DNA of 20,782 nt from a virus, in IMG/VR virus record IMGVR_UViG_3300031523_000124, positions 1 through 20,782 of that record. The stretch is one strand, 5' to 3'. Every line of letters starts with the position of its first letter. Within the stretch, counting starts at the first letter, position 1. Shown piece after piece: positions 1-18,308 of this stretch. A program made the translations under genes and the position numbers. Below the pieces are notes generated by a model. It was not told the origin of the DNA, did not search any database, and saw only the letters and a program-made list of their open reading frames with translations.

Positions 1-273
1 GTGCTACTAGAGTTATAGCTATCAGACGCAGCGTAATTCGGCACATTACCAAGACCGACTTGGGCCTTAGTGTGCGAATGTGAACTGGATGCCTTCAATG
101 CCAATCCATCCTTGATCGCTTTGGAAGTCGCCAGCGTTGTAGTGCTACTAGAGTTATAGCTATCAGACGCAGCGTAATTCGGCACATTACCAAGACCGAC
201 TTGGGCCTTAGTGTGCGAATGTGAACTGGATGCCTTCAATGCCAACCCATCTTTGATCGCTTTGGAAGTTGCT
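1..273. repeat. 141-bp tandem repeat in the tail fibre gene
   Basis: Two copies, 1-132 and 142-273, lie 141 bp apart. The first 104 bases are identical and the next differences (positions 105 and 111 of the first copy) are single substitutions. The period is exactly 47 codons, so copy number can change without breaking the frame. The first copy touches the window edge, so the array may continue outside. Confidence 0.93.
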
Positions 274-5879: not shown

Positions 5880-6788
5880 TTACAGGTAGTCTGGAACAAC
5901 AATCTCAAACTTCTTGTACAGCTCGTTGCTTTCGCCGTTGTCTAGCTTTTCACGGTCTATCACACGTCGAGCCGCTCGCTCTAGTGACACAGGCACTACT
6001 AAGATAGTAGGACGAATGCCCAACTTAGCGCCGCCGTCTGCAGTCAATGAACGCATGGCGGTGTAAGCAGCCCACAAGGCGTCATACGTCAATGCAGCTT
6101 TAGCACCGTACGCCATTTGCCAAAACGCAAAACCTACGTTGTCACGACAATCCACACCAAAGCGAAACTCTTTAGACATAAAGACCTTTTCGTCTTTGCT
6201 GTCGGTCATCTGTTCAAACTTGGGCGCTTTGCGCTGCTGGAAGATAATCGGTTTAATGGCGCGACTAGCGTCCATCAAATACCAAGCTTCACCAGTGTAT
6301 GCTGCGTCTTCCACCATGTTAGACGTAGCGGTAACAGCACCGGTGCCGTCGGCCGTGGCGTTAACTGGGTGCTCGGTATCAAAGAACGGTTGGCCGTCAT
6401 AGCATAAATCTGTGAAGCCCGATTTCAATAGCGGGTATACCATTTGATCTGGGTGCAACTTGGCAGCGTGGCCTAGCTCTTTCATCAATGGCGCATAAAT
6501 GCCCAACTGATCATCTTCAATTTCGTTGCGACCCACCGATATAGTAGACTCCCAATCTTTGTTGATGATGCTGTAGCCATGGGCTGCAAGGTTGTTGAGC
6601 TGACGATCCCCAAGCCACTCGCGCATGCCTGGCACTTTACCTAGCCACGCGTAAGTGTTGCTAGCCGTAGAACTAGGCACATGGCTAGCTACTTTAAGGT
6701 ACATCGGTTCAACACTGGTTTGGCCGTCTTGGAAGTGCTTTTTAAAGCCAACAAATGCGGCGGCTAATGCTGCGGGTGTAATGATCAT
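5880..6788 (-). CDS. T: Major capsid protein (Mu gpT family)
   Basis: 302 residues, close to Mu gpT (305). Diagnostic stretches are the N-terminus with LAAAFVGFKKHFQDG, then YAWLGKVPGMREWLGDRQL, and the KDWESTISVGRNEIEDDQLGIY region (seen as ESTISVGRNEIEDDQLG). Further on come CYDGQPFFDTEHPV and FGVDCRDNVGFAFWQMAYG. gpT-type capsid proteins have the HK97 fold and are not known to carry a long N-terminal scaffold domain. The scaffold is supplied by the upstream gpI/Z product. It lies 46 bp downstream of gpI, the usual I-T order, and should be the most abundant virion protein. Confidence 0.97.
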   Translation of the reverse strand: MIITPAALAAAFVGFKKHFQDGQTSVEPMYLKVASHVPSSTASNTYAWLGKVPGMREWLGDRQLNNLAAHGYSIINKDWESTISVGRNEIEDDQLGIYAPLMKELGHAAKLHPDQMVYPLLKSGFTDLCYDGQPFFDTEHPVNATADGTGAVTATSNMVEDAAYTGEAWYLMDASRAIKPIIFQQRKAPKFEQMTDSKDEKVFMSKEFRFGVDCRDNVGFAFWQMAYGAKAALTYDALWAAYTAMRSLTADGGAKLGIRPTILVVPVSLERAARRVIDREKLDNGESNELYKKFEIVVPDYL

Positions 6789-6834: not shown

Positions 6835-7332
6835 TTAATCTGCAGCCTGTGCGCTTAAAAATTCTGCTTCGGTTAAAGCCAACTGGCGGCACATGGCTAG
6901 CTGCGTTTCATCTAGCTTGCTTGCGCCGGTACCTGGTGGCTTGTCACTTAAGTCTTGGGCAGGAGCCAACACTTTAGGGGCAGAGGAAAACAAGGTTTTC
7001 ACTTGCTCTAAGCCACCCTCTGCACGACACAACGCTAAATATTGATCGCGGTTAGCAGGGGCTACTTGGCCGCCTGCAATGGCTGCGTCTACAACCGTGG
7101 TCGCTTCGCTTTCTAAACTAGCCAGTGCACTGGCAGCAATAGCCGCCTCTGCTGTAGTTGCACGGTTAAGTGCAAGCTGATGCGTTTCGGCAGGAATGAA
7201 CTTAGTCACGTCTACCTGTTGCGCGCTGTTCAGAGCCAACAAGTGGTCTGTGCCTAGCTTATCGATAGCAGCTACAGCAGCGTCTTCGGTAGCATCGGCA
7301 CGCAAGCCGAGCTTGGTTAAAATCTTGTCCAT
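6835..7332 (-). CDS. Z: Nested in-frame scaffold protein (Mu gpZ-like) inside gpI
   Basis: An internal ATG at 7330-7332 (Met156 of gpI, MDKILTKLGL) is preceded by AGGAG at 7339-7343, six bases upstream. This is as good a ribosome binding site as any in the operon. Translation from it gives 165 residues identical to the C-terminal part of gpI: Ala-rich helices without the protease domain. Mu makes its scaffold gpZ from such an internal in-frame start within gene I, and lambda makes Nu3 within gene C in the same way. The product would supply free scaffold in excess over the protease-scaffold fusion. Sequence support is strong; expression is inferred. Confidence 0.8.
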   Translation of the reverse strand: MDKILTKLGLRADATEDAAVAAIDKLGTDHLLALNSAQQVDVTKFIPAETHQLALNRATTAEAAIAASALASLESEATTVVDAAIAGGQVAPANRDQYLALCRAEGGLEQVKTLFSSAPKVLAPAQDLSDKPPGTGASKLDETQLAMCRQLALTEAEFLSAQAAD

Positions 7333-7797
7333 GGGTTTCTCCTGCTGATGATTCAGCGCTGGTAGTTGGGTTAGGTTTGCGCGGTTGGTTAAACCAACGC
7401 TAGATAAAGTAGTGACATAGCCTGTGGCGTCATGACGAAATGCGGGGCTGTAGTAGCGGTAGGCTTTGCCTTCTATTAAGGCTTTGCCAGCGTCAGTCCA
7501 TTGCACCTTGCCCCAAATAGCGCCGTCTCTAACAAACAAGTCTGCGATAGCAATCCATGCCATTGCTGGCGCTGGATCACCCTTTGGGCCTTTAAGTTCT
7601 GTGGAGTGCTCAATGTCTATCGCTATATCTAAGCCAAAATCTTGCGCTGCATTAATAACAAGCTGAGGATTAGGGTTAGACCAGCCACGTCCGTCGCGGC
7701 CAGCAAATTGGCCTGCGGGCACAAGCAACAGCTCTTCCGGTAAAGCGGCAGAGCTAAAGGCTTGTAATGTGGAGTTGAGAGCAAGAATCGTTTTCAT
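6835..7797 (-). CDS. I: Mu gpI-like prohead protease with C-terminal scaffold
   Basis: 320 residues, about 40 shorter than Mu gpI (361). The N-terminal protease domain (about 1-140) has VPAGQFAGRDGRGW, IDIEHSTELK (His64), MAWIAIADL and RYYSPAF (Ser117), followed by SVGLTNRANL. These are conserved in the Mu protein I family (PF10123), and His64 and Ser117 are plausible catalytic residues. From residue 156 the chain is an Ala-rich helical scaffold, ended by a LALTEAEF tail. In Mu the protease cleaves the scaffold during head assembly. The gene follows a strong candidate late-promoter motif (7827-7846) and begins the head operon. Not to be confused with tail protein I at 434-937. Confidence 0.94.
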   Translation of the reverse strand: MKTILALNSTLQAFSSAALPEELLLVPAGQFAGRDGRGWSNPNPQLVINAAQDFGLDIAIDIEHSTELKGPKGDPAPAMAWIAIADLFVRDGAIWGKVQWTDAGKALIEGKAYRYYSPAFRHDATGYVTTLSSVGLTNRANLTQLPALNHQQEKPMDKILTKLGLRADATEDAAVAAIDKLGTDHLLALNSAQQVDVTKFIPAETHQLALNRATTAEAAIAASALASLESEATTVVDAAIAGGQVAPANRDQYLALCRAEGGLEQVKTLFSSAPKVLAPAQDLSDKPPGTGASKLDETQLAMCRQLALTEAEFLSAQAAD

Positions 7798-7933
7798 GCG
7801 CCCATGTTAGGGCTAGGCGGTTATACTGTGGGATTCAAGCGTTTGAATGAATTTGGGTTTTTGATTAAACCAGTGATAAGCAGTGAAATAGGCTAATATT
7901 AAACATCAACCTGCTTAAAAAGGAACAAGCAAA
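7798..7933. promoter_or_regulatory. Divergent intergenic region between gpI and the pentapeptide gene
   Basis: 136 bp between two divergent starts. The left part carries the leftward late-promoter motif (7820-7848) for gpI. The right part is AT-rich and must hold the rightward promoter of the pentapeptide gene. TTGATT at 7861-7866 with TGAAAT at 7884-7889 (17-bp spacer), or the TAATAT at 7894-7899, are possible elements, none of them convincing. AAGGA at 7920-7924 is a good ribosome binding site for the ATG at 7934. Confidence 0.55.
7820..7848 (-). promoter_or_regulatory. Candidate activator-dependent late promoter upstream of gpI (PI-like)
   Basis: A perfect 6-bp dyad, ATTCAAGCGTTTGAAT (7833-7848), lies inside a 20-bp motif (7827-7846) that recurs at 15668-15687 with one mismatch. 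On the minus strand a TATAAC (7825-7820) follows at about -10 distance, and no -35 hexamer is evident. gpI starts 29 nt downstream of the motif. Mu has a C-dependent late promoter, PI, at exactly this gene. Mor/C proteins bind dyads upstream of such promoters, and a Mor-family gene is present at 17416-17853. Confidence 0.6.
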
Positions 7934-9232
7934 ATGATAAGTGAATCGTCAATTGAAGAAGGTATAGTGTCGTTAGAGGTCGCTGTTACAAAACACCTCG
8001 AAGGTAAGGATGCTTGGAATGAATGGATGGGCGAAGATTTTATTGATACTGCTGAGGTTCCTATGTTAACCATAGACGGTAATTTCAGAGGGCACTGCTT
8101 TGATGGTTTTATTTTTAAATGTAACGTCACTATCGGTGACCGTGTTCAGCACCCAACCTTTGTTGGAGCGGTGTTTCATGAAAGTCTCACCGCAGCGCCA
8201 ACTACCTTTGGAACCACCTCTTTTGATTTTCAGAAGGCCACGTTTTTTGGTGAAGTCTCATTTTGTAGAAAAATTGGTACATTAAATTTAGCCAACACGA
8301 TGTGCCACAGCTCTCTCAATTTCATGCTTAATAACACAATGAACACACTAATCCTAAAAAAAAGCACTCTCCATAAGGGCCTAACAATTGACTCTTTAAA
8401 GATAAGTAACGATTTAGAAGCTAGTGAGATTGATTGCATCGGATCGTTCAGTTTTAATAAATCTACAGTGGGTGGTAACTGCAACTTCACTAAGTCGACT
8501 TTTAGCCAACCTGTCTTCGTTTACGCCAATACATTTGATGAAATGGTGTCGTTTGGCAATTGCACTTTCCACGGAACGGCACAGTTTTTATCTTGCTCCT
8601 ACGCTCAAACGGTGCACTTTGAAAACTCTAGGTTCGACAAGGTGCCTGAGTTTTTCCAATCCAACATCTCTCCCGAATCTGTTGCGGGCATCGTCGTAAA
8701 GTATTCTCGGAACCCCAAACGGTATAAATGGATATTTTATCGGGCCAGCCGGTTTGAGGATGCACAAGCATATCGGCAACTAAAGCAGATGGCTGTGACT
8801 CGCCAGGACCATGCTGCGGAACAACGATACTTTGCTCAAGAAATGCGAGCAAAGCGATGGCATGAAGAAACGCATATAGCAAATCTTTCTATAAATTACT
8901 TATATGAAATGGTTAGCAACTATGGCCAAAGTATACTCAGGCCATTTATATTATTGTGGGCGGTAGTCTTTTTGCACACGAACCTATACTTACAAACATC
9001 CCCCATTAATAACTGGACACTTGCGTTTTATTACAGCCTAAGCAACAGTTTGCCATTTGGTAGCCTAACTCGACGGTCACAGAGTCTGTATGAGCAACTC
9101 TACCCAAAAGGGATTGAGGCATGCCCAGAACAACTTACCTTGTTCTACACAACGATAGGATTTAACGGGTTTTTTGGATTTGTTTTCTTGTTTCTAATTG
9201 GATTAGGGTTACGTAACCAGTTCCGTCTATAA
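7934..9232 (+). CDS. Pentapeptide-repeat membrane protein (moron, plus strand)
   Basis: 432 residues and the only plus-strand gene. The N-terminus has the AWNEWMGED motif common before pentapeptide domains. Residues about 46-240 form degenerate pentapeptide repeats with Phe or Leu at the centre of each turn (FVGAVF, FDFQKATFFGEVSF, FNKSTVGGNCNFTKSTF), a quadrilateral beta-helix. Residues 273-309 (SRFEDAQAYRQLKQMAVTRQD, then EQRYFAQEMRAKR) match the linker usual in membrane-anchored pentapeptide proteins. Two hydrophobic helices follow (about 335-353 and 404-425), with an amphipathic YYSLSNSLPFG loop between, reminiscent of a two-helix channel. It lies against the late operon with its own ribosome site and terminator and appears more AT-rich. 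Likely cargo; the function is unknown. Confidence 0.88.
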   Translation: MISESSIEEGIVSLEVAVTKHLEGKDAWNEWMGEDFIDTAEVPMLTIDGNFRGHCFDGFIFKCNVTIGDRVQHPTFVGAVFHESLTAAPTTFGTTSFDFQKATFFGEVSFCRKIGTLNLANTMCHSSLNFMLNNTMNTLILKKSTLHKGLTIDSLKISNDLEASEIDCIGSFSFNKSTVGGNCNFTKSTFSQPVFVYANTFDEMVSFGNCTFHGTAQFLSCSYAQTVHFENSRFDKVPEFFQSNISPESVAGIVVKYSRNPKRYKWIFYRASRFEDAQAYRQLKQMAVTRQDHAAEQRYFAQEMRAKRWHEETHIANLSINYLYEMVSNYGQSILRPFILLWAVVFLHTNLYLQTSPINNWTLAFYYSLSNSLPFGSLTRRSQSLYEQLYPKGIEACPEQLTLFYTTIGFNGFFGFVFLFLIGLGLRNQFRL

Positions 9233-14594: not shown

Positions 14595-15098
14595 CTAATC
14601 CAATAAACTGCTAGGAACAGGCGAGCCAGTGATGGCCGACGTTAGCTTGTTTCGGGTGCCTCGCTTTTCTGCACTACGCCCAATAGACCAAGTAGCACAG
14701 ATGCCACCCCATGCGGCCCAAAACTCGGTAGGCAAGTTAGCCAAGGGCTCTACAGTGACGCCCTCAACACCAAACAACTGCAGCAAACGGCCAGCAATGG
14801 GAAACAACACATAGTTAATGCCAATGAACAAAAGCCCTGCATACACCACCGTAGGCCGCGCACGCTTTGTGTAGTTATCGCCTTGGTTTAATTCGGCTAC
14901 CAGCACACGCTCTTTGGCTCCTAGCTCTGCACGGATGGTTTGCTCCACCTCAGAGTCACGCTTTTGCAGTAGCGTTTCGACGGCGAGTTTGAATTCCCTT
15001 TTTTCGTCAGGCGTTTCCATAAACCGATCGGCCACGTCTGCAATGCCACCAACCACTTTGGTTAGGCCGCCGCCTAAAATTTTGGTGATAAAACTCAT
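14595..15098 (-). CDS. Holin of the 3TM (GTA_holin_3TM) type
   Basis: 167 residues. An amphipathic N-terminus (about 1-25, ITKILGGGLTKVVGGIADVADRF) is followed by a charged helix to residue 75. Then come KRARPTVVYAGLLF and two hydrophobic segments at about 83-103 and 124-141. The N-x-x-TKRARPTV motif before the first strong membrane helix is the hallmark of this holin family. It should permeabilise or depolarise the inner membrane for the muralytic enzyme. The start overlaps the DUF5675 stop by 4 bp (ATGA), pairing it with the candidate lysis protein. Confidence 0.88.
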   Translation of the reverse strand: MSFITKILGGGLTKVVGGIADVADRFMETPDEKREFKLAVETLLQKRDSEVEQTIRAELGAKERVLVAELNQGDNYTKRARPTVVYAGLLFIGINYVLFPIAGRLLQLFGVEGVTVEPLANLPTEFWAAWGGICATWSIGRSAEKRGTRNKLTSAITGSPVPSSLLD

Positions 15099-15610
15099 GC
15101 GGCACCTCCTACTAGGCCATTGGCATCAATGGTTTTGTATTCGATAAATACCCGTTTGCCTGCGTTTAAGTGCGCACTCACACGGGTGTATAGGCGCTTG
15201 TAGGCAGCAGTAGATTTACCTAAAAAGGCGGTATTTACTTGGTTGTTGTTGGTGGTGTTGCCCACCAAATAACAAGCATCGGTGTGCTTTTCTGTATTGC
15301 CAATGTGGATGTACACGTAGGTGAAGTTGGGCACGTCTTGCACTTCTAAGTGATACGTAAACCATGGGTGCTTTTCGCGGTATTTAAGCGTAAGGCCGGA
15401 TTCTGCCTCACGAAATTTCACTTCATACACGCCATTGGGTATGCGGGTTTCGCCTGCCACTTTTTTGGCACGATGTTCATCTTCTAGCCCATGGCAAAAA
15501 AACTCACCGGCTACAAAGGTTAATGATTGAGTGGAATTGCCGTTGTCGCTATAACGCAGCACGTCAAGTTTTAAGGCATCGGTTGGTATTTGAAGGGTGG
15601 GTTGTGGCAT
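15095..15610 (-). CDS. DUF5675 family protein in the endolysin position
   Basis: 171 residues. Family features are FFCHGLEDEHRAKKVAGETRIPNGVYEVKF, seen as GLEDEHRAKKVAGETRIPNG, then HPWFTYHLEVQDVPNFTYVYIHIGNT and the DACYLVGN motif. The family often occupies the place of the endolysin next to holins in Mu-like phages. The conserved His, Glu and Cys residues would fit a peptidoglycan-active enzyme, but its chemistry is not known to me. It opens the lysis-packaging operon. Its ribosome binding site (GAGG) is in the distal arm of a perfect inverted repeat (15614-15643), so translation may be controlled. Confidence 0.85.
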   Translation of the reverse strand: MPQPTLQIPTDALKLDVLRYSDNGNSTQSLTFVAGEFFCHGLEDEHRAKKVAGETRIPNGVYEVKFREAESGLTLKYREKHPWFTYHLEVQDVPNFTYVYIHIGNTEKHTDACYLVGNTTNNNQVNTAFLGKSTAAYKRLYTRVSAHLNAGKRVFIEYKTIDANGLVGGAA

Positions 15611-15613
15611 GGT

Positions 15614-15643
15614 GGCCTCACTAGATTAAATGTCTGTGAGGCC
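15614..15643 (-). promoter_or_regulatory. Hairpin covering the ribosome binding site of the DUF5675 gene
   Basis: In the minus-strand mRNA GGCCUCAC and GUGAGGCC form a perfect 8-bp stem around a 14-nt loop, and AGA/UCU inside can extend it past a one-base bulge. The 3' arm contains GAGG, the only Shine-Dalgarno sequence, five bases before the AUG at 15610. There is no U tract, so it is not an intrinsic terminator. It would hold back translation of the first lysis gene. Confidence 0.65.
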
Positions 15644-15654
15644 AATTGTGGGGG

Positions 15655-15687
15655 ATTAGCTGTGGGGTGTGGGATTAAAGCGTTTGA
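15655..15687 (-). promoter_or_regulatory. Candidate activator-dependent late promoter of the lysis operon (Plys-like)
   Basis: The 20-bp motif at 15668-15687 matches 7827-7846 in 19 positions. Here the dyad is imperfect (TTAAAGCGTTTGAC on the plus strand). A GCTAAT on the minus strand (15660-15655) is a possible -10, but it is about 7 bp further from the motif than the TATAAC of the gpI copy. There is also a duplicated CCCCACA-type stretch between. The gene start lies 57 nt downstream of the motif. Mu has a C-dependent promoter before its lysis gene. Confidence 0.55.
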
Positions 15688-15702: not shown

Positions 15703-17286
15703 TTATTCATTCTTAGCCTCTTGAGCACGCAATAGGTTGCTTTGAATGCCTTTGGTTGTTGGATGCTCTTCTCCCAAGGTGGCTAGGGCGCTTTTAAGGG
15801 CTTGCTCATAATAACCAATGGCTTTGTCGTACTCGCCCTTGGCTTTCCATGCCATGCCTAGGTTATTGCGATATGTTGCCACTTGAGGATGGTCTTCCCC
15901 AAAGGTGGCTAGATCGCTTTTAAGGGCTTGCTCATAATAACCAATGGCTTTGCCATACTCGCCTTTAGAGCACCATGCACTGCCTAGGTTATTGCGACGT
16001 GTTGCCACCTCAGGATGGCCTTCCCCAAAGGTGGCTAGGTCGCTTTTAAGGGCTTGCTCATAATAACCAATGGCTTTGTCGTACTCACCTTTAGAGGCCC
16101 ATGCAGTGCCTAGGTTATTGCGGTAAATTGCCACTGTAGGATGGTCTTCCCCAAAGGTGGCTAGGCCGCTTTTAAGGGCTTGCTCATAATAACCAAAGGC
16201 TTTGTCGTACTCACCTTTAGAGGCCCATGCAGTGCCTAGGCCATTGCGGTAAATTGCCACTGTAGGATGGTCTTCCCCAAAGGTGACTAGGCCGCTTTTA
16301 AGGGCTTGCTCATAATAACCAATGGCTTTGTCGTACTCGCCCTTGGTTTCCCATGCACCGCCTAGGTTATTGCGACGTAGTGCCACTCGAGTATGGCCTT
16401 CCCCAAAGGTGACTAGGTCGCTTTTAAGAGCTTGCTCACAATAACCCATGCCTTTGTCGAACTCGCCTTTAAGGTTCCATGCCAGGCCTAGGTTATTGCG
16501 AACTATTGCCACTGTAGGATGGTCTTCCCCAAAGGTGGCTAGGTCGCTTTTAAGGGCTTGCTCATAATAACCAATGGCTTTGTCGAACTCGGCTAAATTG
16601 GCTGATTTCTCTCCAGCATAGTTAGCGTAGCGGCCTATGTCAGGCCTAAGCTGAGTGGCCCGCTTGGCATGTGCAAAAGCCAACCGATATTCGATCTGAT
16701 CGTTGGCAATGTGGGCGCGTTGATAGGCGGCTTCTGCGGCGGCTTCAATATAACTTTGTGCAGACTCTTCCACCTTAGCTAAGGTGGCATCGGCTTTATT
16801 TTGATCACCAGCCTTTAGCGCGGCAATGGCCTCATCAAGAAGAACTTTTGGGATAATGCCTTGCTGATCTGTTAATTCTTCAATGCGCTGCTCAAGGTTT
16901 TTAACGTGAGTCTCATAGCTTGCATGGGGATCACTTAATTGAGTTTTCACCTCTGCTAATTGCTTGGTGAGGTCTTGAATGTCTCGTTTGCTGAGGGCCT
17001 GATCGATCAGTAATGTTTCAATTCTACCTTGCTTTTCTTCTAAGTCTTGTTTGTACTGTTCGTGGGTTATACCGACGGTAGTGTGATTTGTATTGCCTGT
17101 AAAGCTTTCTTGACGAACTGTATTACTATTGCCTTCAATAGTGGAAAATTGCCTACTGCTAACAATCGCTCCTTCGTCTTTAGTAGAGGAAAAAAACCAT
17201 TTGATGGCACCAAAAATCGCTGCTAATAAAAACAAACCGATGGTAATGATATTTGCATCACTAAGGCTTTTAAACCACTCCAGCAT
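15703..17286 (-). CDS. Membrane-anchored coiled-coil protein with seven TPR repeats (cargo)
   Basis: 527 residues. A membrane helix at about 12-32 (NIITIGLFLLAAIFGAIKWFF) is followed by a polar linker with EGNSNTVRQ and THEQYKQDLEEKQGRIE, and a coiled coil to about 140. Then come an Ala-rich helical segment and seven tandem 42-residue repeats that run to the last residue. The repeat consensus, YDKAIGYYEQALKS then LATFGEDHP and a NNLG-AW-KGE end, is the kinesin-light-chain type of TPR, a peptide-binding solenoid. With the N-terminus as anchor the TPRs would lie on one face of the inner membrane. It stands between the activator gene and the lysis genes with its own leader, not part of the Mu core. 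Its function is unknown. Confidence 0.88.
   Translation of the reverse strand: MLEWFKSLSDANIITIGLFLLAAIFGAIKWFFSSTKDEGAIVSSRQFSTIEGNSNTVRQESFTGNTNHTTVGITHEQYKQDLEEKQGRIETLLIDQALSKRDIQDLTKQLAEVKTQLSDPHASYETHVKNLEQRIEELTDQQGIIPKVLLDEAIAALKAGDQNKADATLAKVEESAQSYIEAAAEAAYQRAHIANDQIEYRLAFAHAKRATQLRPDIGRYANYAGEKSANLAEFDKAIGYYEQALKSDLATFGEDHPTVAIVRNNLGLAWNLKGEFDKGMGYCEQALKSDLVTFGEGHTRVALRRNNLGGAWETKGEYDKAIGYYEQALKSGLVTFGEDHPTVAIYRNGLGTAWASKGEYDKAFGYYEQALKSGLATFGEDHPTVAIYRNNLGTAWASKGEYDKAIGYYEQALKSDLATFGEGHPEVATRRNNLGSAWCSKGEYGKAIGYYEQALKSDLATFGEDHPQVATYRNNLGMAWKAKGEYDKAIGYYEQALKSALATLGEEHPTTKGIQSNLLRAQEAKNE
15706..16587. repeat. Seven tandem 126-bp repeats encoding the TPR array
   Basis: Seven in-frame units of 126 bp run from 16587 down to 15706, directly before the stop codon. 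The segment containing cataataaccaatgg recurs every 126 bases (about 15809, 15935, 16061, 16187, 16313, 16439 and 16565, with small changes). Units three and four are almost identical in DNA, including silent positions, which points to recent duplication or gene conversion. Confidence 0.95.
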
Positions 17287-17415: not shown

Positions 17416-17853
17416 TTACTGTTGTCCATTGAGTTTTAACTCAAATTGAACTTTGCCCACATGCAACTTCTTCTGTTGCGCCGCTATATTATAAATCTGC
17501 TGCCTCGTTAGTCCGTAACGCCTACCTAGTTCTTCAACATTACCGCTTTTCATTTGTTGCCAGATCAAGTTATCACGCAATGCACGACGCAGGGTTTCAT
17601 CCCTCGGTAAGTAGATTTGACGGCCACCAAAATAACTGGCCAATACGGTGATTAAATTTTGGGCCTTTTCTCTAGCCACTGCCTCTGGGTGTTTGTCCCT
17701 GCGATACAGGTGGTCTGTAAACACATCCACTAAGTCTGCTAAGGTATTAGGCCATGCCCTTGGATCGCCACGCACGGCATCGTCTAGATGGGCTAATAGG
17801 TCGTCTAAATCGGCATCAATGGGGTCGAATAGTTCGGTTTGGTTGTTGCTCAT
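17416..17853 (-). CDS. mor: Mor/C-family transcription activator
   Basis: 145 residues from MSNNQTELFD. This start is chosen because the ATG overlaps the GemA stop as ATGA and GAGGAGG lies about 8 bases upstream. The Mor family pattern is complete: an acidic N-terminus, then the dimerisation helix region (DLVDVFTDHL). After that come the FGGRQIYLPRDE strand and turn, and a C-terminal HTH (about 105-125, NVEELGRRYGLTRQQIYNIAA). In Mu, Mor switches on the middle promoter and the related C switches on the late promoters. Only one member is visible here, so it may act directly on the lysis and gpI promoters. It ends the early operon. Confidence 0.93.
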   Translation of the reverse strand: MSNNQTELFDPIDADLDDLLAHLDDAVRGDPRAWPNTLADLVDVFTDHLYRRDKHPEAVAREKAQNLITVLASYFGGRQIYLPRDETLRRALRDNLIWQQMKSGNVEELGRRYGLTRQQIYNIAAQQKKLHVGKVQFELKLNGQQ

Positions 17854-18308
17854 TGCGCCTCCTCTAGTCTCATTTTCCACCGTTTCAAATCCTCAATTAA
17901 TGGCGTTAACCAGCCCTCTGGTACAAACTCAAGGGCCTGCCAGCCTATGCCACCGTTGTGCTTCGCGGTCATACGTCTAATCCAGTTGCCTAAGCCGCGC
18001 TCGCTTCCATCTCGTATCAACCCTTGCTTAGCCATGCCGATCCATAACGCGCGTATTTTTTCGCGTTGGGTTTTTTCATCAAATGGGCGTTTACCACTTT
18101 TAGGGCTGTATTTATGCCCCTTGTTCTTTGGCTTCCAGCCGTGGTCTTTGAACCACTGCACAGCTTTATGTAAATCCATCACGCCCATATCAGCGCAGCT
18201 GGTTTTGCCTGTGGCCGAATTTAAGGAGCTGCGGTAGGTGTCGTCGTCTAGCATTAACTCTTTACGAGCAATGTGAACCTGCGCCATTAGTGAGTTACGG
18301 TTGCTCAT
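17850..18308 (-). CDS. gemA: GemA / gp16 family regulatory protein (DUF1018)
   Basis: 152 residues from MSNRNSLMAQVHIARKEL. The start is set by an ATGA overlap with the upstream stop; an in-frame Met six codons earlier is less likely. DUF1018 features are the N-terminal IARKELMLDDDTYRSSLNSATGKTS and the mid-region QREKIRALWIGMAKQGLIRDGSE, with the signature LWIGMAKQGLIRDGSE. GLGNWIRRMT then W-x-x-L at the end complete it. Mu GemA alters host gene expression and DNA supercoiling, and it lies before mor in Mu as here. The gene is translationally coupled on both sides. Confidence 0.93.
   Translation of the reverse strand: MSNRNSLMAQVHIARKELMLDDDTYRSSLNSATGKTSCADMGVMDLHKAVQWFKDHGWKPKNKGHKYSPKSGKRPFDEKTQREKIRALWIGMAKQGLIRDGSERGLGNWIRRMTAKHNGGIGWQALEFVPEGWLTPLIEDLKRWKMRLEEAQ

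Follow-up and report, generated by a model that had tools for sequence, protein, structure and literature searches.

Probable Mor/C-type activator operators at two late promoters of a Mu-like phage, one of them apparently fused to the start codon of the head protease gene

The window (the whole stretch of DNA analysed, all 20,782 bases of IMG/VR record IMGVR_UViG_3300031523_000124) derives from a Mu-like phage, and its genes lie mainly on the minus strand. The features of its two late operons, and of the gene whose product presumably acts on both, are as follows.

6835-7797, minus strand: gpI, Mu-like head maturation protease/scaffold (Pfam Mu-like_Pro, 4e-46; PHROG head maturation protease, 2.5e-79)
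7797, minus strand: predicted gpI transcription start at the A of the ATG (leaderless), from the sequence and its relatives
7800-7813, minus strand: hairpin GCCC-TAACAT-GGGC around the gpI -10 (-8.4 kcal/mol for 25 nt)
7804-7809, minus strand: predicted gpI -10 hexamer TAACAT, 34 bp from the dyad centre and 6 nt before the ATG
7827-7846, minus strand: 20-mer copy 1, TCAAACGCTTGAATCCCACA, upstream of gpI
7833-7848, minus strand: putative activator operator of the gpI late promoter, the perfect dyad ATTCA-AACGCT-TGAAT, with Mor-site geometry
14595-15098, minus strand: holin with three transmembrane segments (GTA_holin_3TM, Pfam profile), lysis operon
15095-15610, minus strand: first gene of the lysis operon (DUF5675, Pfam profile)
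15637-15638, minus strand: predicted transcription start of the lysis operon, from the sequence and its relatives
15645-15650, minus strand: predicted -10 hexamer of the lysis promoter, CACAAT, 34 bp from the dyad centre
15668-15687, minus strand: 20-mer copy 2, TCAAACGCTTTAATCCCACA, putative operator of the lysis late promoter, upstream of the DUF5675 and holin genes
17416-17880, minus strand: Mor/C-family activator of 154 aa, the presumed binder of both operators (Pfam Mor, 1.1e-25)

The Mor-family gene of the window (17880-17416), already reported in the original prediction and confirmed here by its Pfam Mor match (E 1e-25), precedes both late operons. Its product matches a PHROG of late transcriptional activators (2e-32), and among solved structures Mu C is the closest (9vw8 and 9l0x, ~1e-22), with Mor (1rr7) at 6e-14; exactly one such gene is present in 31 of 33 records. 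A rightwards gene (7934-9232, plus strand) with its own Shine-Dalgarno sequence sits between gpF and gpI and codes for a pentapeptide-repeat protein whose C-terminal part is membrane-like; it matches a PHROG of unknown function and is likely cargo. Between the Mor-family gene and the lysis operon there is a gene for a TPR-repeat protein with an N-terminal membrane helix (15703-17286), which contains about seven 126-bp DNA repeats and for which PADLOC gives a generic TPR match only. A 131-bp tandem duplication at the left end of the window (1-272; copies at 1-131 and 142-272, 98% identity) probably belongs to a tail fibre gene.

On the minus strand the motif TCAAACGCTT[G/T]AATCCCACA is found at 7846-7827 before gpI and at 15687-15668 before the lysis operon. 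A pattern search recovered the 20-bp repeat with the single mismatch originally described, found exactly two copies and no third in the record at up to three mismatches, and returned zero matches to the reversed control pattern; the DUF5675, holin and Mu-like_Pro profiles bear out the placement of the copies before the lysis operon and gene I. The perfect dyad attributed to the gpI copy is likewise present as the 16-bp sequence ATTCAAGCGTTTGAAT at 7833-7848, with two 5-bp repeats around a 6-bp spacer and 43.5 bp between its centre and the A of the gpI ATG downstream, and in the lysis copy it is imperfect, with three of the five outer pairs kept. Both promoters have the minus-strand orientation; a plus-strand promoter at the dyad, serving the divergent gene at 7934, was rejected because the hexamer at 34 bp (7872-7877, AGTGAT) is unfit. 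In shuffled sequence the 16-mer had a mean of 0.21 matches at up to three mismatches (100 shuffles), and when the 250 bp upstream of gpI are set against the sequence that follows the Mor-family gene, the best common 18-mer agrees at 17 of 18 positions, where 40 shuffles reached no more than 15. A simple sigma-70 promoter scan of 7700-8000 found nothing, as expected since no -35 is present. Because the exact 19-mer has zero matches across all viral contigs, the spelling of the motif is private to this phage.

Relatives were gathered through the terminase, which yielded 80 viral loci and 80 prophage loci from named species, the latter mainly Halomonas/Vreelandella, Pseudomonas, Marinobacter, other Gammaproteobacteria and Alphaproteobacteria; as scan queries, Mor gave one distant locus only and gpI three loci. 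In each relative the 250 bp before gpI were compared with the stretch after the Mor gene, and many Mu-like relatives of the Gamma- and Alphaproteobacteria have their own near-identical pair at the same two places, with a phage-specific spelling. The pair is CTCCTAAAGCGCTTTAAATCC / CTCCTAAACCGCTTGATTCCC in Halomonas phages and TCAAACGCTTGAA / TCAAACACTTGAA in L039; the L020 group has the motif CCTGAA-N4-TTCAGG, and alphaproteobacterial prophages have CCCTACACACCGTTGTAG. The search of the phage genome and its relatives that had been proposed with the original prediction found the motif essentially absent elsewhere in whole genomes. Complete phage records have exactly two copies of the Halomonas motif each (three in one record), the 4.5 Mb genome of Vreelandella maris QX-1, in which three prophages have the motif, contains seven, all on the three contigs that yielded Mu-like prophage loci, and a 5.1 Mb genome has the L126 motif twice; the reversed control pattern had 0 matches in these two genomes and in the complete phage records. 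A third genome contains the two expected sites plus one extra inverted copy with two mismatches, ~8 kb away. The divergence of the sites tracks that of the activators when corrected for terminase distance, with a correlation that is modest in size (partial Mantel 0.34, p = 0.0095, 16 phages). The phage-specific pairs, their near-absence elsewhere in the genomes and the correlation of site and activator distances together argue that the sites are an operator evolving with its own activator, and on this comparison of sequences the motif is very probably the docking site of the phage's own late-gene activator.

Several further observations were made among the relatives. The extra inverted copy with two mismatches is one of the L140 operator in L179; it is close to the end of the prophage, ~8 kb away from the lysis site. 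Some alphaproteobacterial relatives have the paired sites, yet the gene before the lysis site has a marginal or sub-threshold Mor match or no Pfam Mor match. HTH proteins are encoded at the Mor position in L126 (6718-7089), L140 (5230-5601), L143 (~6060-6394) and L167 (6552-7031), two with sub-threshold Pfam Mor matches and two with HTH-only matches and a Mor-like FGG..Y motif; from their sequences, it is possible that they are distant Mor/C relatives missed by the profile model. Repeated 20-mers before gpI and within the lysis region, without late-promoter annotation, are present in RcapMu (L183, 20/20), HS6 (L181, 19/20) and MuM16-1 (L180, 20/20), where the fused arrangement described below is absent, and the pair comparison found no significant long repeated 20-mer in Mu, D3112 or martha. 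In L062 (16286-16370, and also in L091 and L174) a third operator copy stands before a leaderless relic of the gpI start, six codons long (MKTKSL stop), an arrangement of sequence that suggests the gpI promoter as the entry point of cargo, with duplication of the promoter as the result.

The position of the gpI promoter was examined in 48 non-redundant gpI upstream regions (at most 65% shared identity), anchored at the ATG. The most conserved bases of a -10 element are the A at position 2 and the T at position 6. The corresponding pattern xAxxxT lies exactly at -12 to -7 of the gpI ATG in 25 of the 48 (mean 2.7 at other offsets), and at the same offset before the starts of the terminase subunits, gpF and gpT in just 1-2 of 35-59. 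The hexamers vary (TAACAT in the window, and GATCAT, TAAACT, CATGCT, TAATCT, CATTCT and others elsewhere); since the position is kept while the spelling differs, this is not mere sequence conservation. Dyad symmetry in the 25 has two peaks only, one with centres at -42.5 to -44.5 and one around the hexamer, and neither the peak at ~-43 nor that at -10 is present in the other 23 upstreams, which lack the fused arrangement and include that of Mu. A Shine-Dalgarno sequence occurs in one of the 25 fused-type upstreams, as against 43 of 47 for gpT. Because of an in-frame TAA stop at -12 to -10 in the window, there is no longer gpI N-terminus or upstream start codon. The dyad to -10 spacing varies by ~1 bp in some groups, and both -10 hexamers of the window are weak, with four of six consensus matches. 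The Mor site of Mu spans 16 bp with two 5-bp repeats and is centred at -43.5 (PMC4390567, PMC4461284); the site in the window, first described as unlike anything in Mu, thus has the published geometry, and a dyad centre 43.5 bp away places the predicted +1 on the A of the gpI ATG. These sequence relationships suggest a promoter fused to the start codon of a head gene, with an mRNA beginning directly at the AUG.

The lysis promoter serves as an independent test. Lysis sites were located as the best matches within the lysis region using a 24-bp stretch around the dyad that excludes the hexamer, and of the 14 non-redundant sites 13 have xAxxxT at the 34-bp distance from the dyad centre (mean 0.77 at other offsets), one of the 14 (L016) being individually non-significant (p 0.13). 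Roughly half of the 25 gpI sites are matched by a lysis partner at p <= 0.05, and several of the others are on truncated contigs; for several relatives no lysis partner above chance was found. In the window the predicted lysis leader is ~28 nt long, with GAGG (15619-15616) 5 nt before the ATG at 15610.

The gpI -10 hexamer in the window forms the loop of a hairpin whose right arm touches the ATG, and L054 has the corresponding hairpin CATGCCCGC-CATGCT-GCGGGCATG. The mean hairpin fold is -10.1 kcal/mol, as compared with -6.45 (sd 0.48) after swapping right arms between phages; as swapped arms fold more weakly, the two arms covary. The G-U pairs in the hairpins of L020, L042 and L076 are a pointer to action as RNA. 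At the lysis promoter every relative with the ATG at +1/+2 (L016, the L020 group, L039, L040, L052, L076, L082 and L085) has a strong hairpin (-6 to -16 kcal/mol), and the hairpin is weak (0 to -4 kcal/mol) where the ATG is further downstream, as in the window; being strong only where the ATG is at ~+1, it belongs with the start codon and not with the promoter. A transcript that starts at the ATG cannot contain the hairpin, which would then have to act on read-through RNA, and by analogy with T4 gene e it may mask the gpI start codon there.

The window resembles Mu in its activator family, with the activator gene before the lysis operon, in having a dyad that, counted from the predicted start, overlaps the -35 region, with no -35 hexamer and a weak predicted -10, and in having putative promoters before the lysis genes and gene I. 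It differs in its operator sequence, in having two sites where Mu has four late promoters (Plys, PI, PP and Pmom, activated by C, the middle promoter Pm being activated by Mor), and in having one Mor-family gene where Mu has both Mor and C. In addition, the gpI mRNA is predicted to be leaderless, whereas Mu gene I, as read from its sequence, has a leader of ~30 nt with a CAGGA Shine-Dalgarno sequence, and the window has a hairpin built around the -10. The likeness to the Mu late-promoter set drawn in the original prediction therefore stands for the sites before the lysis operon and gene I and does not extend to PP and Pmom, for which no counterparts were seen, since the window has two copies of the motif and complete relatives have two each, or three in one case; this concerns the size of the Mu regulon, not the promoter type.

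In T4, gene e, soc and I-TevI each have a translation start that is masked by a hairpin in early RNA, with the late promoter embedded in the hairpin-encoding sequence (PMC3014915, PMC2988022). The arrangement in the window is similar in that the hairpin would fold only in read-through RNA and the predicted late promoter lies inside the hairpin region, and in several relatives the gene concerned also belongs to the lysis operon. Unlike T4, which uses gp55, the promoter would be a sigma-70 promoter with a Mor-type activator; the late transcript is predicted to be leaderless, and it is the AUG, not a Shine-Dalgarno sequence, that is next to or inside the stem. A sequestered Shine-Dalgarno of the T4 kind does not occur in 24 of the 25 upstreams, which have no such sequence, so masking would concern the AUG. 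As in leaderless mRNAs the -10 hexamer is 6 nt before the ATG and there is no Shine-Dalgarno; what sets this case apart is that it concerns a late head gene, presumably activated by the phage (and in some relatives also the first gene for lysis), and that the arrangement, predicted from sequence, is conserved over many lineages.

We propose that the single Mor/C-family activator (17880-17416) binds both operators, its dimer sitting on the 16-bp dyad centred at about -43.5 in place of a -35 element, and that the host sigma-70 polymerase then uses the -10 hexamer that lies 34 bp further on, TAACAT at the gpI promoter and CACAAT at the lysis promoter. As the gpI -10 is 6 nt before the ATG, transcription of this gene would start at the A of the start codon and give a leaderless mRNA, and the lysis transcript would have an ordinary ~28-nt leader with a Shine-Dalgarno sequence. 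The inverted repeat around the gpI -10 would fold only in RNA read through from upstream and mask the start codon in it, so that most translation of gpI would come from the late transcript of the gene itself. The pairs, the spacing, the hexamer, the absence of a Shine-Dalgarno sequence and the covariation of the arms were computed, and from these we infer the binding, the start sites, the leaderless translation and the role of the hairpin. The probability of this combined reading, with Mor/C-bound operators at two late promoters, a leaderless gpI mRNA and a start-masking hairpin on read-through RNA, we put at roughly 0.8. The late-promoter operator in the original prediction is strongly supported by phylogenetic footprinting, the paired sites, the 34-bp spacing and the joint divergence of site and activator.

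Other readings of the locus differ in which part they change. With the same operator and activator, the gpI -10 could be TATAAC (7825-7820), as first proposed, giving a ~16-nt leader that contains the hairpin; this hexamer is present in the sequence and matches the consensus better than TAACAT, but it would put the dyad centre near -27 and not -43.5, no Shine-Dalgarno follows it, the lysis copy has CCCACA at the corresponding place, and it is unconserved in relatives, whereas 25 of 48 upstreams keep a hexamer at -12 to -7. As it is neither common to copy 2 nor conserved, TATAAC is probably not the -10, and we consider this version unlikely. Slightly less probable again is that another regulator, such as a phage repressor or a host factor, binds the dyad: the alphaproteobacterial relatives with paired sites and a sub-threshold or absent Pfam Mor match would fit it, as opposed to the Mor-site geometry, the tracking of Mor divergence by site divergence and the placing of the one Mor gene just before the lysis site.

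That the repeats are recombination junctions for the insertion of cargo (the pentapeptide-repeat gene at 7934-9232 and the TPR gene at 15703-17286) accords with the cargo genes adjoining both copies and with the L062/L091 third copy and gpI-start remnant that flank extra DNA between gpF and gpI; we regard it as very improbable, given the fixed distance of the copies to the -10 hexamer and the gene starts and the occurrence of pairs in many relatives regardless of neighbouring genes, although cargo exchange may be helped by the common promoter sequence as a by-product. Chance similarity of two short sequences is refuted in practice by the shuffle tests and the relatives, even though short repeats can arise in this way and the window has further repeat families with two copies each, comparable in length and less identical.

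With less assurance than for the window itself, we favour extending the Mor/C-activated, start-codon-fused arrangement to a broad group of Mu-like phages: a dyad at -43.5, a -10 at -12 to -7, a +1 at the AUG, a leaderless protease/scaffold mRNA and a covarying silencing hairpin, with operator and activator drifting together while the geometry stays constant, and in some lineages with the same layout at the first gene after the lysis promoter. We found no report of leaderless late mRNAs of Mu-like phages in the PMC literature, whose coverage leaves out most subscription journals, and a start-codon-fused late promoter with a start-masking hairpin appears not to have been described previously in these phages. 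If the proposal is correct, two devices known from single genes, leaderless translation and hairpins that mask the start, would constitute a conserved form of late-gene control in transposable phages. The sequence rule (dyad, 34 bp, -10, 6 nt, ATG) would allow late promoters to be predicted in Mu-like prophages and gene starts to be placed correctly there, and the natural series of activators and operators would provide material for studying joint change in a DNA-binding protein and its site.
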